Below are positions 1,413 through 36,404 of a stretch of 62,481 nt of DNA, piece after piece. The translations under genes were made by a program, and so were the position numbers. The number at the start of each line of letters is the position of its first letter. Position 1 is the stretch's first letter. The DNA is from an uncultured Treponema sp. GTDB lineage: Bacteria; Spirochaetota; Spirochaetia; Treponematales; Treponemataceae. The notes below the pieces were generated by a model, which made no database searches, was not told the origin of the DNA, and saw only the letters and a program-made list of their open reading frames with translations. The DNA lies in NCBI GenBank assembly GCA_947167345.1, contig CAMVHR010000014.1:1-62481 (forward strand). Direction: 5' to 3'.

Positions 1413-2438
1413 ATGGCAAAAGAAAAAACAACACCACATAAAGTCGTAATGACAGAAGGCAAAAGAGAAATTATCAGAAATCTGCTTTCAGAATACGACA
1501 TCCAATCAGCCCAGGATATTCAGGAAGCACTGAAAGATCTGCTTGGCGGAACCATCAAAGAAATGATGGGAGCTGAGATGGAAGACCACCTGGGTTATGA
1601 AAAATCTGAGCGTTCTGACAATGATGATTACCGGAATGGTTACAAATCCGATGTCACAGACAAGATACTTCCGCAGATTGAAGAATGGCAGAACCGTCCG
1701 CTAGATGATGTTTATCCGGTCATTTACATCGATGCCATTCACTATTCAGTCAGAGACAACGGAATGATTGTCAAAAAAGCCGCTTATGTAATTCTTGGAC
1801 TTACCTGTGACGGACGCAAGGAAGTACTGTCTCTCGCCATAGGAGAGAATGAGAGCGCCAAGTTCTGGCTGAACGCTCTGAACGAGCTTAAGAACCGTGG
1901 AGTGCAGGATGTTATGATTATCTGCGCTGACGGCCTTACCGGCATCAAAGAGGCCATCTCTGCAGCCTTCCCGAAAACTGATTACCAGCGCTGTATGGTT
2001 CATATGGTTCGCAACACTCTGAAATATGTTGCATCAAAAGACATGAAGTCTTTCGCCGCTGACCTGAAGACTATTTACAATGCTGTTTCCGAAGATGAGG
2101 GACAGAAGGCCCGTGACCGTGTTGTCGAGAAATGGTCCGCTAAATATCCGAACTCCATGAAACGCTGGATTGAAAACTGGGATGTGGTCGTGCCGATATT
2201 CAAGTTCTCAAAAGATGTCAGAAAAATCATCTACACCACGAATGCCATCGAAAGCTTGAATTCCAGCTACCGCAAGCTCAACCGCCAGCGAAGCGTATTT
2301 CCGAACGACCTGGCTCTGCTCAAGGCTCTTTATCTTGCAACTTTTGAAGCAACGAAAAAATGGACTCAGCCGATTCACAACTGGGGTCAGGACTACGGTG
2401 AAATGTGCATAATGTACGAAGACCGCCTGCCTGACTAA
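1413..2438 (+). CDS. IS256-family (mutator-type) transposase with internal deletion
   Basis: 341 residues, whereas IS256 transposases usually have about 390-410. The DDE residues are present: D107 in YIDAIH, D173 in CADGLTG and E280 in TNAIESLN. The N-terminal part runs normally to YRNGYK (residue 78) and then jumps to SDVTDKILPQIEEW. Full-length relatives carry about 60 residues between these points, including the helix-turn-helix just before 'ISDVTDK'. The frame is kept. AGGAG lies before ATG 1413. The catalytic core looks intact, but DNA binding is probably impaired, so activity is doubtful. Confidence 0.9.
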   Translation: MAKEKTTPHKVVMTEGKREIIRNLLSEYDIQSAQDIQEALKDLLGGTIKEMMGAEMEDHLGYEKSERSDNDDYRNGYKSDVTDKILPQIEEWQNRPLDDVYPVIYIDAIHYSVRDNGMIVKKAAYVILGLTCDGRKEVLSLAIGENESAKFWLNALNELKNRGVQDVMIICADGLTGIKEAISAAFPKTDYQRCMVHMVRNTLKYVASKDMKSFAADLKTIYNAVSEDEGQKARDRVVEKWSAKYPNSMKRWIENWDVVVPIFKFSKDVRKIIYTTNAIESLNSSYRKLNRQRSVFPNDLALLKALYLATFEATKKWTQPIHNWGQDYGEMCIMYEDRLPD

Positions 2439-2445
2439 TCAAAAA

Positions 2446-2477
2446 AAAGACAACTTCCCGGCAGGGAAGCTGTCTTT
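2446..2477 (+). terminator. Terminator hairpin behind transposase (copy 1)
   Basis: AAAGACA-ACTTCCC, loop GGCA, then GGGAAG-TGTCTTT forms a long stem just after the transposase stop codon. An A-run precedes it and only a short T-run follows. The same hairpin is at 8795-8826 in copy 2. Confidence 0.7.
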
Positions 2478-26788: not shown

Positions 26789-29191
26789 CTATATTTTCTT
26801 TACAGTAAATGGAATCTTTATAGAATTTCCCATCCAGTCAGTTACTTTTAATGCCCCAGAACCTTCTTTTCCAACAGATTTTACATAAGTTCCAGCAAAA
26901 CCGCCTTTTAAAGAAACCGCAGAAGGACCTATAAGCTCTATATCACCTTCACATGTCAACACTACAGCTTCCTGACAATACGGCTGAACGTTTCCATTTT
27001 GGTCAACAACAGACAGCCTTACAGAAGCAACATCATAGGAATTATCTTCTATAAGAGTATCTCTCATAACAACAGCCTTTACACAAACTTCTTCAGAAGG
27101 AATCCTTACAAGGGTCTTTACAACCTTTCCATCCCTTATTGCCTCGAATTTATGCTGTATTATTGCTCCTCCCCATCCTGCTACATACTTTCCGAAAAGG
27201 CTTTTGAGCCTGTTTTCATCAATTTTATGGACACTAGTTATTTTTGAGGCAAGAGCTTTTTCTTTTGAAGTAAGTCGTTCAAAATTTCCGGCATATTTCC
27301 GCAAAATCATGAGGAATTCCTTTACATCTTTAGCACAGCCTTCATCAAGACCGTCTTCATCTGCAAGGCGGTTTCCTATAAAATCATCAACAAGAATAGG
27401 GCCATGTGCAAGATTCTTATACGGAGAATCTTTTTTAGAATATTCCTTAATAAATACTCCGTTTTCATAGAATTTTACACTGTCAGCATTTGTATAAATC
27501 CAAATTTGACCAATTGCCCCAGCTGGGTATTCCCCAATGTCAAGGCTTGAATTTACAAAAAGAACATCCCCTGTTACAGACGGCTCTTCCTGGCTCTGAT
27601 AAACATAGGCTGCAAGCTTAGGGTTTCGGAACATGTCCATTACACCATGATAACAAATCTTATCGCCGCTACCAAAATCCCTGTGCGTATTATAGTCAAA
27701 AGCACACCATCCGCTTGTTCCGGCAAGATTATCCATGCCAGCAGACGCATCAAGTACAGTAGCATGTCGGACTGCATGTTCAGTACGATGAATCTCATCA
27801 TCAAATGTTTTGGTAGGATACATGTGTCCGTTGTACTCAGTAACCATATATCCCTTATCCGTATCCGTAACGTTTTTTTTCTGAGTCAGCCCTTCGTTTG
27901 TTCCAAAATGAACAAAATCATTATAAGTATACACATCTTCAAGCAGATGCGAATGCTTTATACAGCGGACACCACCTGTAGGTCTTGTAGGATCAAGTTC
28001 CCGACATACACTATTCGTGCGCTCATAGAATTCATCATCGTCCATGCTTTCATTAATGCGGACTCCCCACAGAAAAATTGAAGGATGATTGCGGTACTGT
28101 TTTACCATGTCACGAACATTCTGCACGGCAATGTCTTTCCATTCTGATCCACCTATATGCTGCCATCCAGGAATTTCTGTAAAAACAAGGAGACCTATTT
28201 CATCACAACGATCAATGAAATAATGGCTTTGAGGATAATGAGAGGTTCTAACTTCATTAAGTCCAAGCTCAAATTTAAGGATATCAGCATCTTCTCTCTG
28301 CATGTTTTTAGGCATTGCATATCCTACATAAGGATAACTTTGATGACGGTTTAGTCCCCGAATCTTTATTTTCTTACCATTCAGGTAAAATCCGGTATTA
28401 TCAAAACGGATGTCCCTGAATCCGAAGCGGACAATTTTAGTATCTACAACAGTTCCAGAACCGTCAACAAGGTCTGTAACAAGATTATACAATGCAGGAT
28501 TATCAAGTTCCCATGCAGAAACAGGCTGAGCTCCAGCTTCTGTCAGAATTTTTGAAGAAGAAACACCTGTATTAATTTCAGCACAAACAGTATCATCAGA
28601 GCTAGCACTTATCACCTTCTGATGAATTGAATATTCGCAATTGCACTCACATGAAAGTGTTATTTCAGTTGCAAAGTGATTCTTATTAGTCTTTACAAAA
28701 ACATCTTTTATGTAAACAGGATTTTTTACTTCAAGATAGACATCGCGGTAAATTCCACCGTAAGTCATGTAGTCAATGACAAAACCAAAAGGGGGTTGAT
28801 TAACGCTTTCACGGCTGTCAAGCTTTACAGCAAGTATATTTTTTTCAGAGGAAGGTGAAAGATATTCCGTCAAATCAACAGTAAATGCCGTGTATCCGCA
28901 CGGATGAACAAAAACAGACTTTCCATTTATAAAAACTTCGCTTCGATGGGCAGCACCTTCAAAAGTCACTAAAACTTTTTTCCCGTTCCATGACGGATCT
29001 GTTACAAATTCTTTTCTGTACAGACTAAGCTTTTCGTAACGAGAAACTGAAAAATTATTAAACGGAGTGACTGCAACTGTATGTGGCAGTCTTATTTCTT
29101 CAAAAGAACCTGTATATGAAGGTTCAATCATCTCTTCTGAAAATTCAGGGGCATAAAGCCATCCATCATTAAAATAAAGCTTGTTATCCAT
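26789..29191 (-). CDS. Glycoside hydrolase family 2 (beta-galactosidase/beta-glucuronidase type)
   Basis: 800 residues, no signal peptide, so an intracellular enzyme. The jelly-roll sugar-binding domain spans about 1-155, then an Ig-like domain and a TIM barrel with RGLNRHQ, NEVRTSHYP, the acid/base Glu381 in RINES (usually NEP) and the nucleophile Glu452 in TEYNGHM. Further beta domains close the protein. It removes non-reducing beta-linked sugars from oligosaccharides; the exact sugar cannot be told. It fits a plant-glycan or mucin degrader. It has its own leaderless promoter and no neighbouring transporter. Confidence 0.9.
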   Translation of the reverse strand: MDNKLYFNDGWLYAPEFSEEMIEPSYTGSFEEIRLPHTVAVTPFNNFSVSRYEKLSLYRKEFVTDPSWNGKKVLVTFEGAAHRSEVFINGKSVFVHPCGYTAFTVDLTEYLSPSSEKNILAVKLDSRESVNQPPFGFVIDYMTYGGIYRDVYLEVKNPVYIKDVFVKTNKNHFATEITLSCECNCEYSIHQKVISASSDDTVCAEINTGVSSSKILTEAGAQPVSAWELDNPALYNLVTDLVDGSGTVVDTKIVRFGFRDIRFDNTGFYLNGKKIKIRGLNRHQSYPYVGYAMPKNMQREDADILKFELGLNEVRTSHYPQSHYFIDRCDEIGLLVFTEIPGWQHIGGSEWKDIAVQNVRDMVKQYRNHPSIFLWGVRINESMDDDEFYERTNSVCRELDPTRPTGGVRCIKHSHLLEDVYTYNDFVHFGTNEGLTQKKNVTDTDKGYMVTEYNGHMYPTKTFDDEIHRTEHAVRHATVLDASAGMDNLAGTSGWCAFDYNTHRDFGSGDKICYHGVMDMFRNPKLAAYVYQSQEEPSVTGDVLFVNSSLDIGEYPAGAIGQIWIYTNADSVKFYENGVFIKEYSKKDSPYKNLAHGPILVDDFIGNRLADEDGLDEGCAKDVKEFLMILRKYAGNFERLTSKEKALASKITSVHKIDENRLKSLFGKYVAGWGGAIIQHKFEAIRDGKVVKTLVRIPSEEVCVKAVVMRDTLIEDNSYDVASVRLSVVDQNGNVQPYCQEAVVLTCEGDIELIGPSAVSLKGGFAGTYVKSVGKEGSGALKVTDWMGNSIKIPFTVKKI

Positions 29192-29262: not shown

Positions 29263-29291
29263 TTGACACAAAAAAATCAAAAGCATACAAT
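29263..29291 (+). promoter_or_regulatory. Strong promoter upstream of hairpin-terminator leader
   Basis: TTGACA (29263-29268), 17-bp spacer, TACAAT (29286-29291): the best -35 in the window. Start is expected near 29298. Confidence 0.7.
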
Positions 29292-29297
29292 ACTATA

Positions 29298-29368
29298 TCA
29301 TTTTGAGCAAAGACGCTCATTCAATCTGAGGACACCATTGTCTTCAGGTGGAATGGGCGTCTTTTTTT
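29298..29368 (+). ncRNA. Candidate attenuator leader or ~70-nt small RNA upstream of ykgJ-like gene
   Basis: From the predicted start at about 29298 the RNA folds into an outer stem GACGCTCATTC (29312-29322)/GAATGGGCGTC (29351-29361) and an inner stem CTGAGGACA (29326-29334)/TGTCTTCAG (29339-29347), each with one G-U pair. A T-tract at 29362-29368 follows directly. This is a full intrinsic terminator only 19 bp before the next ATG. It may therefore be a conditional attenuator for that gene or the end of an independent small RNA. No known riboswitch class is recognised. Confidence 0.55.
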
Positions 29369-29386
29369 GTTTAAAGCGAGTTTTTT

Positions 29387-30055
29387 ATGAAGGCTGATGA
29401 AAACGAACTGAAAAATATTATCAATGAATTGAAAGGAACGTACAAAGAAGAAATTCTAAAATCAATGCAGAAACTTTATTCTAAAATTGCAAAACTACAA
29501 GCGTCATGGTATGAAAAATCAGGATTTACATGTGTCAAGGGATGCGGAGAATGCTGCAGAAATTTTGAGCCAGATCTTTTGGAGTGTGAAAGTATTTTCA
29601 TGGCGGCCTGGCTTTTGGAAAACCAAAGAGAAGTCGCTGATAATGTAATTGATGGCAAATTTCCTTTTCCAAATAACAAAGGTTGTCCATTTTGGGATGA
29701 ACAAAAAGAATATCACTGTACGATTTACGGAGGGAGACCTTTTATATGCAGATTTTTTGGAGCATGTGGCTCAAAGGGAAAAGATGAAAAGACTGTATTC
29801 AAACCATGCAAGTTTTATCCTGCAAAAATTCTTGAAGAACATAATCCGCCACTCGCACACAAACAGTATTCAGATGCCGAAATTATGAAAATTTTCGGTA
29901 TTCTGCCACCAGTTACAACAGATATTATGGAAAGTGCAGTTTCATTAAATCCAAATAATCATTCCACAGAATTACTTAGAACGGCCTTGCCTAAAGCCAT
30001 AAAGGAGCTAAAATGGATTTGTAAAGTATCAGACGCAAGAATTTTGTCAGACTGA
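29387..30055 (+). CDS. YkgJ-family cysteine cluster protein
   Basis: 222 residues. The zinc/iron-chelating pattern is C49-x3-C53-x2-C56-C57 (CVKGCGECC), with later cysteines in GCPFW, YHCTIYGGRPFICRFFGACG and PCKFYP. This matches the PF03692-type 'putative zinc- or iron-chelating' family, whose role is not settled. The gene stands behind a promoter plus terminator-like leader (29263-29368), so its expression may be conditional. GCGAG lies before ATG 29387. Confidence 0.8.
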   Translation: MKADENELKNIINELKGTYKEEILKSMQKLYSKIAKLQASWYEKSGFTCVKGCGECCRNFEPDLLECESIFMAAWLLENQREVADNVIDGKFPFPNNKGCPFWDEQKEYHCTIYGGRPFICRFFGACGSKGKDEKTVFKPCKFYPAKILEEHNPPLAHKQYSDAEIMKIFGILPPVTTDIMESAVSLNPNNHSTELLRTALPKAIKELKWICKVSDARILSD

Positions 30056-36330: not shown

Positions 36331-36404
36331 TGCGCGGCTTTGGAATCGAACCAAAGACCCCAAGCGTGTCATGCTTGTACTCTAACCAACTGAGCTAGTC
36401 GCGC
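36331..36404 (-). tRNA. tRNA-Val (anticodon GAC)
   Basis: 74 nt on the minus strand, starting GCGCGAC at 36404. D-arm GCTC/GAGT, anticodon stem CAAGC/GCTTG with loop ATGACAC (anticodon GAC, reading GUC/GUU), five-base variable loop, T-arm TTTGG-TTCGATT-CCAAA and acceptor GCCGCGC plus discriminator A. The acceptor stem has one A-C mismatch at position 6-67. CCA is not encoded. It lies between the cheY terminator and the parE promoter. Confidence 0.92.

Follow-up and report, generated by a model that had tools for sequence, protein, structure and literature searches.

The window, by which we mean the whole stretch of 62,481 nucleotides analyzed, is contig C14 of genome G000 (3.23 Mb). The leader studied here is located between a divergent glycoside hydrolase gene (26789-29191, minus strand), which flanks its promoter side, and a gene on the plus strand (29387-30055, ATG at 29387) that encodes a YkgJ-like CxxCxxCC protein of 222 amino acids (PF03692) and that the leader would control. 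A sigma-70 promoter was recognized at 29263-29291 of the plus strand, with a -35 box TTGACA (29263-29268) and a -10 box TACAAT (29286-29291) separated by a 17-nt spacer, and it agrees with the consensus in 11 of 12 bases. Between positions 28000 and 31000, it ranks first among 18 promoter-like sites, when compared to a mean of 9.1 sites in shuffled sequences. Judging from the position of the -10 box only, transcription on the plus strand would start at 29298, 6-7 nt before a small hairpin. No Rfam family reached its threshold at this site, and a tRNA-Val (GAC) at 36331-36404 of the minus strand was the sole tRNA and the sole Rfam match over threshold in the window.

An intrinsic terminator hairpin is predicted for positions 29312-29361 of the plus strand. 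Its outer part pairs 29312-29322 with 29351-29361, its inner part pairs 29324-29334 with 29339-29349, and a 1x1 mismatch (29323 x 29350) separates the two, amounting to a stem of 22 bp, or of 25 bp if A-U pairs into the U-tract are counted. The U-tract (T7) follows at 29362-29368 of the same strand. With a G+C-containing stem and then a U-run, the site has the hallmarks of an intrinsic terminator; the consensus terminator scan did not include 29312-29368 among its calls. Folding of the RNA from 29298 to 29375 yielded -40.2 kcal/mol (z = -8.93), a value equalled by none of 200 shuffled sequences. Another pairing is possible between 29302-29311 (UUUGAGCAAA) and 29366-29375 (UUUGUUUAAA), past the U-tract; it is good in several leaders of ykgJ-like genes, and it was not taken as part of the core structure because it is missing in G104, G156, and G018.

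A sequence complementary to the terminator 5' arm lies ahead of that arm, so that a small hairpin, UGAGC-AAAGAC-GCUCA, can form at the 5' end of the RNA (29304-29319, plus strand). In this putative antiterminator hairpin, the arms 29304-29308 and 29315-29319 enclose the hexaloop AAAGAC (29309-29314), which has an A at position 1 (A1) and a G at position 4 (G4). In stepwise folding of the window RNA, the small hairpin formed at nt 22 and persisted up to nt 58 while the inner hairpin grew next to it; the terminator appeared from nt 62 onward. Forcing the small hairpin led to a folding energy of -22.5 kcal/mol as compared to -36.8 kcal/mol and freed the sequence GGGCGUC before the U-tract, and with the small hairpin held, the leftover stem ends 7 nt short of the U-tract.

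Relatives of the leader were gathered with covariance models built from the same motif. The first model (R1) was derived from the first three leaders and, due to a structure line that was offset by two columns, acted mainly as a sequence profile, whereas the second model (R2) comprised 67 rows with the right pairs, and folds were counted independently of the R1 structure. Relatives were found by R1 in 92 of 196 genomes of the genus (E ≤ 1) and by R2 in 126 of 196 (E ≤ 0.01), whereby weak R2 matches include ordinary terminators; those in G000:C1, G290, and G305 are of this kind and have no regulon genes behind them. Because the hairpin is nearly palindromic, matches of both models were often reported on the reverse strand too, which affects match counts and leaves genome counts unaltered. 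The collection consists of 70 elements, 68 of them distinct, with weaker R1 matches lying outside of it, and the alignment A3 contains 67 rows, omitting the duplicates L077 and L112 as well as L115, which has no recognized gene behind it. Of the 68 distinct relatives, 53 have an upstream promoter match of at least 10 of 12 bases (shuffled mean 0.5). In the named genome collection, the conserved 24-mer GARCAAAGRCGYTCATTCRATTTG is present in 31 stretches, and its carriers include Treponema bryantii NK4A124, B25, and XBD1002 as well as many rumen Treponema assemblies.

Orthologues of the ykgJ-like gene are encoded in 71 of the 196 genomes of the genus. The same succession of promoter, hairpin, and T-tract precedes the orthologue directly in G014, G023, G217, G143, and G089, and a diverged leader does so in G018, G104, and G156. 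Many other orthologues (in G025, G006, G033, G028, G011, G003, G012, G021, G017, and others) lack the leader, which is therefore not tied to the ykgJ-like gene. The regions upstream of the orthologues in G025, G093, and G198 (L006, L044, and L051) contain no element and show the repeated or palindromic sequence GGGGTCTGTCCCC/GGTCTGTCCCTGTTT. A repeat or mobile element as the origin of the leader was rejected because BLAST finds the site only once in its own genome and because the element occurs at orthologous positions.

Both folds are well conserved among the relatives. All four core base pairs of the small hairpin are paired in 67 of the 68 distinct elements, with GAGC-AAAGAC-GCUC here and GAAC-AAAGGC-GUUC elsewhere as examples. 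Within the hexaloop, A1, A2, and G4 are present in 68 of 68 elements, position 3 is A in 62, G in five, and T in one, and position 6 is C in 67 and T in one; the diverged pyrG leader of G018, which is outside the set of 68, has a G at loop position 1. In the 67-row alignment, 99.6% of the cells of the small hairpin are paired, changes on both sides occur in three of its four pairs, and its covariation score of 0.295 compares with 0.169 in shuffles that ignore the relatedness of the rows (0 of 500 as high), while slides of the register reach at most 53% pairing. For the terminator, 94.1% of the cells are paired and both-sided changes occur in 15 of 21 pairs (0 of 500 such shuffles as good), and the first four positions of the U-tract are invariant. 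The position shared by both folds (column 12) is unpaired with the antiterminator arm in one of 67 rows and with the terminator 3' arm in seven. The small hairpin and the terminator are mutually exclusive folds, both with covariation support. In the terminator, A1 and G4 have pairing partners as well, in the U-tract and right next to it, so that their conservation does not constitute independent proof. The arms of the outer stem (CAUUCGAUUUGA/AUGGAAUG) are conserved within the genus beyond the needs of pairing; they have other sequences in a second family and in G396, where the A1/G4 hairpin is kept. The smallest element, L219 (G396:C47:14010-14055), has 46 nt and consists only of hairpin and terminator, and it precedes glnA with an ANTAR gene behind.

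These comparisons suggest that the segment 29263-29386 is a promoter followed by a conserved transcription attenuator, with termination predicted at the U-tract. The first-pass annotation had proposed a near-perfect promoter in front of a YkgJ-like gene and, as one of several readings, an attenuator expression platform made of two stacked stems and a T-tract. Its promoter, its T-tract, and its gene were confirmed, and the attenuator platform, for which it had asked for a conservation and covariation check, is now backed by two competing folds that covary in 67 relatives. Its two stems, however, turned out to be a single hairpin, and this strongly folding structure is not the only one, since the third pairing of 29304-29308 with 29315-29319 competes with it. 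The remark that no known class is matched was fair, given the Rfam result.

The genes behind the 68 elements share a theme. The first recognized gene is carA in 38 cases, pyrG in 13, glnA in seven, ykgJ-like in six (where three ykgJ-pyrG pairs were counted), nadE in three, and unclassified in one, and Pfam confirms example genes for carA, pyrG, glnA, and nadE. In G217, a carB-like reading frame (identified by eye) comes just before the ykgJ-like gene and pyrG after it, and in G095, also a member of the genus, an element precedes asnB (Pfam). In other genera and in the second family, the hairpin is found before genes identified by Pfam as encoding glutamate synthase (GOGAT), argG, type III glutamine synthetase, nifH, carA, and glnA, and outside the genus an ammonium transporter (amtB) fused to a P-II domain is also encoded behind an element (Pfam); for purF and a glutamine-amidotransferase-like GOGAT subunit, the names were assigned by eye alone. 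The leader before nifH (L206, G400:C80:8172-8234, minus strand) belongs to a genome from another family of the order. An element before an EAL-domain gene of the cyclic-di-GMP type (L217, G354:C3:92992-93076, minus strand) is off the nitrogen theme. Genome G000 itself has a second leader in contig C20 (locus L136, approximately 2408-2471, minus strand) with a GAC-AAAGAU-GUC hairpin, a long terminator, and a promoter that leaves few nucleotides before the hairpin; it is positioned between the ANTAR gene, which it follows directly, and asnB, in a cluster with the order glmS-glnA-ANTAR-asnB. In the stretches inspected for carA and pyrG of G000, no such leader was found. As relatives precede carA, pyrG, glnA, nadE, GOGAT, argG, nifH, amtB, and type III glutamine synthetase genes, the leader appears to be part of a regulon whose genes make glutamine, use it, or otherwise serve nitrogen metabolism, and the ykgJ-like gene is one of its members. 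The metal or Fe-S signal suggested at first finds no support, and a metal or Fe-S riboswitch was rejected, since the genes behind most elements belong to nitrogen and glutamine metabolism.

An A1/G4 hexaloop that overlaps a terminator ahead of nitrogen genes is known to characterize the targets of ANTAR proteins (Ramesh et al., 2012, PMC3369931; see also PMC3369936). The Treponema leaders resemble the ANTAR-target leaders of that account (eutP, eutG, eutS, eutA, nasF, and amiE) in having an A1/G4 hairpin over the 5' arm of the terminator, nitrogen-related genes behind it, and an ANTAR protein encoded in the genome. A six-nucleotide A1/G4 loop overlapping the terminator 5' arm was found in 68 of 68 elements, and the small 5' hairpin matches the P2 (terminator-overlapping) half of an ANTAR target. 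In contrast to the leaders described in PMC3369931, which have a P1 hairpin upstream, the Treponema leaders are without one, and no P1 (recruitment) hairpin was found a few nucleotides upstream. Also, their terminator is an unusually long single hairpin, unlike in the described ANTAR-target leaders. For the 57 of 68 elements with a clear promoter (promoter score of at least 9), the distance from the inferred start to the hairpin is below 12 nt in 54, and in 15 transcription would begin on the very first hairpin base. A second A1/G4 hexaloop hairpin was found at chance level, both within the 35 nt upstream (5 of 68 versus 4.2 in shuffles) and downstream within the element (12 of 68 versus 9.5), whereas the site itself carries an A1/G4 hexaloop hairpin in 67 of 68 versus 0.66. 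The loop of the inner hairpin was considered as a second ANTAR half-site and is unsupported in that role because in the genus it usually reads NNNAYU, not A1/G4, and because it is missing in G396.

Published EutV leaders have two hairpins and induction fails without either of them (PMC3369931), which is why a site with just one hairpin should not function under that model. According to Walshe et al. (2022, PMC8934654), a EutV dimer makes contact with only one hexaloop at any moment, a single hexaloop is the minimal motif, and the second hairpin is explained as a recruitment site that is needed because the polymerase is fast. In the same account, single-hexaloop sites are proposed as possible, more bioinformatics on such motifs is called for, and the extent of their role in ANTAR function is raised as a question. 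The Treponema leaders fit this proposal, with the difference that Walshe et al. expected single sites where the polymerase sets no time limit, whereas the Treponema hexaloop sits inside a transcription attenuator. For NasR, an affinity of about 12 μM for single-hairpin RNA is given in PMC7496416. By its sequence, the Treponema leader would be ANTAR-target-like and fall outside the two-hairpin definition, and we interpret it most readily as a variant of ANTAR antitermination that uses a single hexaloop. The carA motif of Polynucleobacter (PMC8632094), compared by description only, is alike in its extended hairpin upstream of carA; it is a betaproteobacterial riboswitch candidate, and no alternative 5' hairpin is described for it in the passages considered. 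In searches of the open literature, we encountered no description of such ANTAR leaders in Treponema or spirochaetes, which are not mentioned in the main texts of PMC3369931 and PMC8164766, and Treponema RNA candidates are named only before ribosomal protein genes in the relevant part of PMC8040213.

ANTAR domains (PF03861) were detected in 169 of 196 genomes of the genus and in none of 14 control genomes. A single one is encoded in G000 (G000:C20:44559-44717). In 29 of 30 ANTAR reading-frame entries, some of which are overlapping copies of one locus, glnA lies directly upstream on the same strand. The order sample comprised 291 genomes from 82 genera, 212 of these genomes being from outside the genus. 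Outside the genus, an ANTAR domain over the cut-off was found in 13 of 13 genomes with the element (E ≤ 1e-4) versus 14 of 199 without it (Fisher p = 1e-13) or, when counted per genus, in 6 of 6 versus 4 of 75 (p = 6e-7), and within the genus the association was modest, with the element in 83 of 169 ANTAR-positive versus 6 of 27 ANTAR-negative genomes (p = 0.007), all of these figures being uncorrected for phylogeny within genera. At E ≤ 0.01, R2 gave 20 matches outside the genus, of which 18 were accompanied by ANTAR; the exceptions, G290 and G305, are the plain terminators mentioned above. The six ANTAR-negative genomes of the genus with an element (E ≤ 1e-6) are G007, G066, G089, G095, G098, and G146, and with a full-length Treponema ANTAR profile no ANTAR domain was found in these assemblies, which are 72-94% complete. 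In four other ANTAR-negative genomes of the genus (G030, G130, G142, and G165), no carA was found and pyrG is present; pyrG of G130 and of G030 has no such leader.

We aligned 23 Treponema ANTAR sequences, one of which (L076) is cut by the end of its locus and blank at the positions tested. The RNA-binding residues K149, E160, and M172 (EutV numbers) are kept in 22 of 22 rows, Arg168 is replaced by Glu, and the position of Tyr164, which in EutV stacks on G4 of the hexaloop, is occupied by His in 21 of 22 rows and by Gln in the protein of G000. The Treponema proteins resemble AmiR, NasR, and EutV in their C-terminal ANTAR domain with these three residues, in a receiver-like N-terminus and, with AmiR, in the His at 164. 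They differ from them in being encoded behind glutamine synthetase and in a receiver domain that looks degenerate; the N-terminus of the G000 protein gave a weak match to Pfam Response_reg, below the cut-off, and the partner of the protein may therefore not be a kinase. We regard the receiver-like ANTAR protein whose gene directly follows glnA as the likely candidate for the regulator, which would bind the hexaloop.

We consider it probable that, as a whole, the leader is an attenuator switched by the glnA-linked ANTAR protein on a single 5' hexaloop and serves a nitrogen/glutamine regulon. RNA polymerase would make the small 5' hairpin (P) with its A1/G4 hexaloop first. If P is unheld, its loop and 3' arm would be captured by the 5' arm of the long terminator and transcription would stop at 29362-29368. 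If the receiver-like ANTAR protein sits on the hexaloop of P, the terminator stem would be shortened, leaving a gap of 7 nt before the U-tract, and the gene would be transcribed. The leader thus most likely halts transcription unless the ANTAR protein grips the small hairpin, with antitermination as the presumed direction of control and the nitrogen or glutamine state as the presumed signal. No recruitment hairpin stands upstream, and a single hexaloop, located at the start of the RNA, would do the work. One possibility for what replaces the recruitment step is that the hairpin, being made first and about 40 nt ahead of its competitor, has time.

In a different explanation, another RNA-binding protein stabilizes the small hairpin, or polymerase kinetics at the 5' end decide, for example through nucleotide-dependent start or slippage as for pyrG in Bacillus. 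Starts exactly at the hairpin in 15 of 57 clear-promoter leaders, the pyrimidine genes carA and pyrG behind many elements, and the six ANTAR-negative assemblies with an element would suit it, but glnA, nadE, GOGAT, nifH, amtB, and asnB are not pyrimidine genes, most leaders lack a starting run of G or U that could support slippage, the loop fits ANTAR, and the glnA-ANTAR pair is present in the same genomes. Under permissive settings, the Rfam model for PyrR-binding leaders gave 15.4 bits at this site, when compared to its cut-off of 54. We regard this explanation as unlikely, and a riboswitch as marginally less likely still. If the leader itself recognized a metabolite, for instance glutamine or a nucleotide, through an aptamer formed by the small 5' hairpin or by the conserved CAUUCGAUUUGA/AUGGAAUG arms, no protein would in principle be required, and the glutamine theme and the conservation of the arms within the genus beyond pairing needs would be accounted for. 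However, the leader spans only some 70 nt and shows neither a junction nor a pseudoknot, no Rfam glutamine riboswitch matched even at E ≤ 10, the arms vary in the second family and in G396 while the A1/G4 hairpin stays, down to the 46-nt element of G396, and the co-occurrence with ANTAR outside the genus is strong. A constitutive partial terminator or stand-alone sRNA of about 70 nt, in which polymerase reaches the gene by reading through and the 5' hairpin serves only to protect the RNA end, is very improbable, for even if a strong terminator directly follows a promoter and the 18 nt before the ATG are too short for a second one, the strict covariation of a pairing incompatible with the terminator and its placement before functionally related genes in dozens of species point to regulation. 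Hence the riboswitch and the 70-nt small RNA named in the first-pass annotation now appear less likely than a protein-controlled antiterminator.

Returning to the ANTAR protein on the single hexaloop, a more far-reaching version would be that in Treponematales, glutamine synthetase itself acts as the sensor, holding or releasing the ANTAR protein according to glutamine, much as AmiC holds AmiR. We put this forward tentatively, as a combination that we hold to be rather doubtful; its single-hexaloop part is supported by the sequences of the leaders, and the sensing role of glutamine synthetase is guessed at from the order of the genes alone. Our searches of the open literature found no global nitrogen control system described for rumen or gut treponemes, and the regulon reported here would be a candidate for such a circuit, into which a YkgJ-family protein of unknown role is placed as well. 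The leaders look like natural one-hexaloop attenuators, spread over 92 to 126 of 196 sampled genomes of the genus depending on model and cut-off; therefore, the question of Walshe et al. is directly testable, the cultured Treponema bryantii included, and the leaders could show how one hairpin suffices where known ANTAR leaders use two. A natural two-hairpin version with a terminator between the hairpins was also encountered, as at locus L204 (G400:C73:22497-22628, minus strand) a tandem of two complete elements, 71 nt apart, precedes a gene for type III glutamine synthetase.
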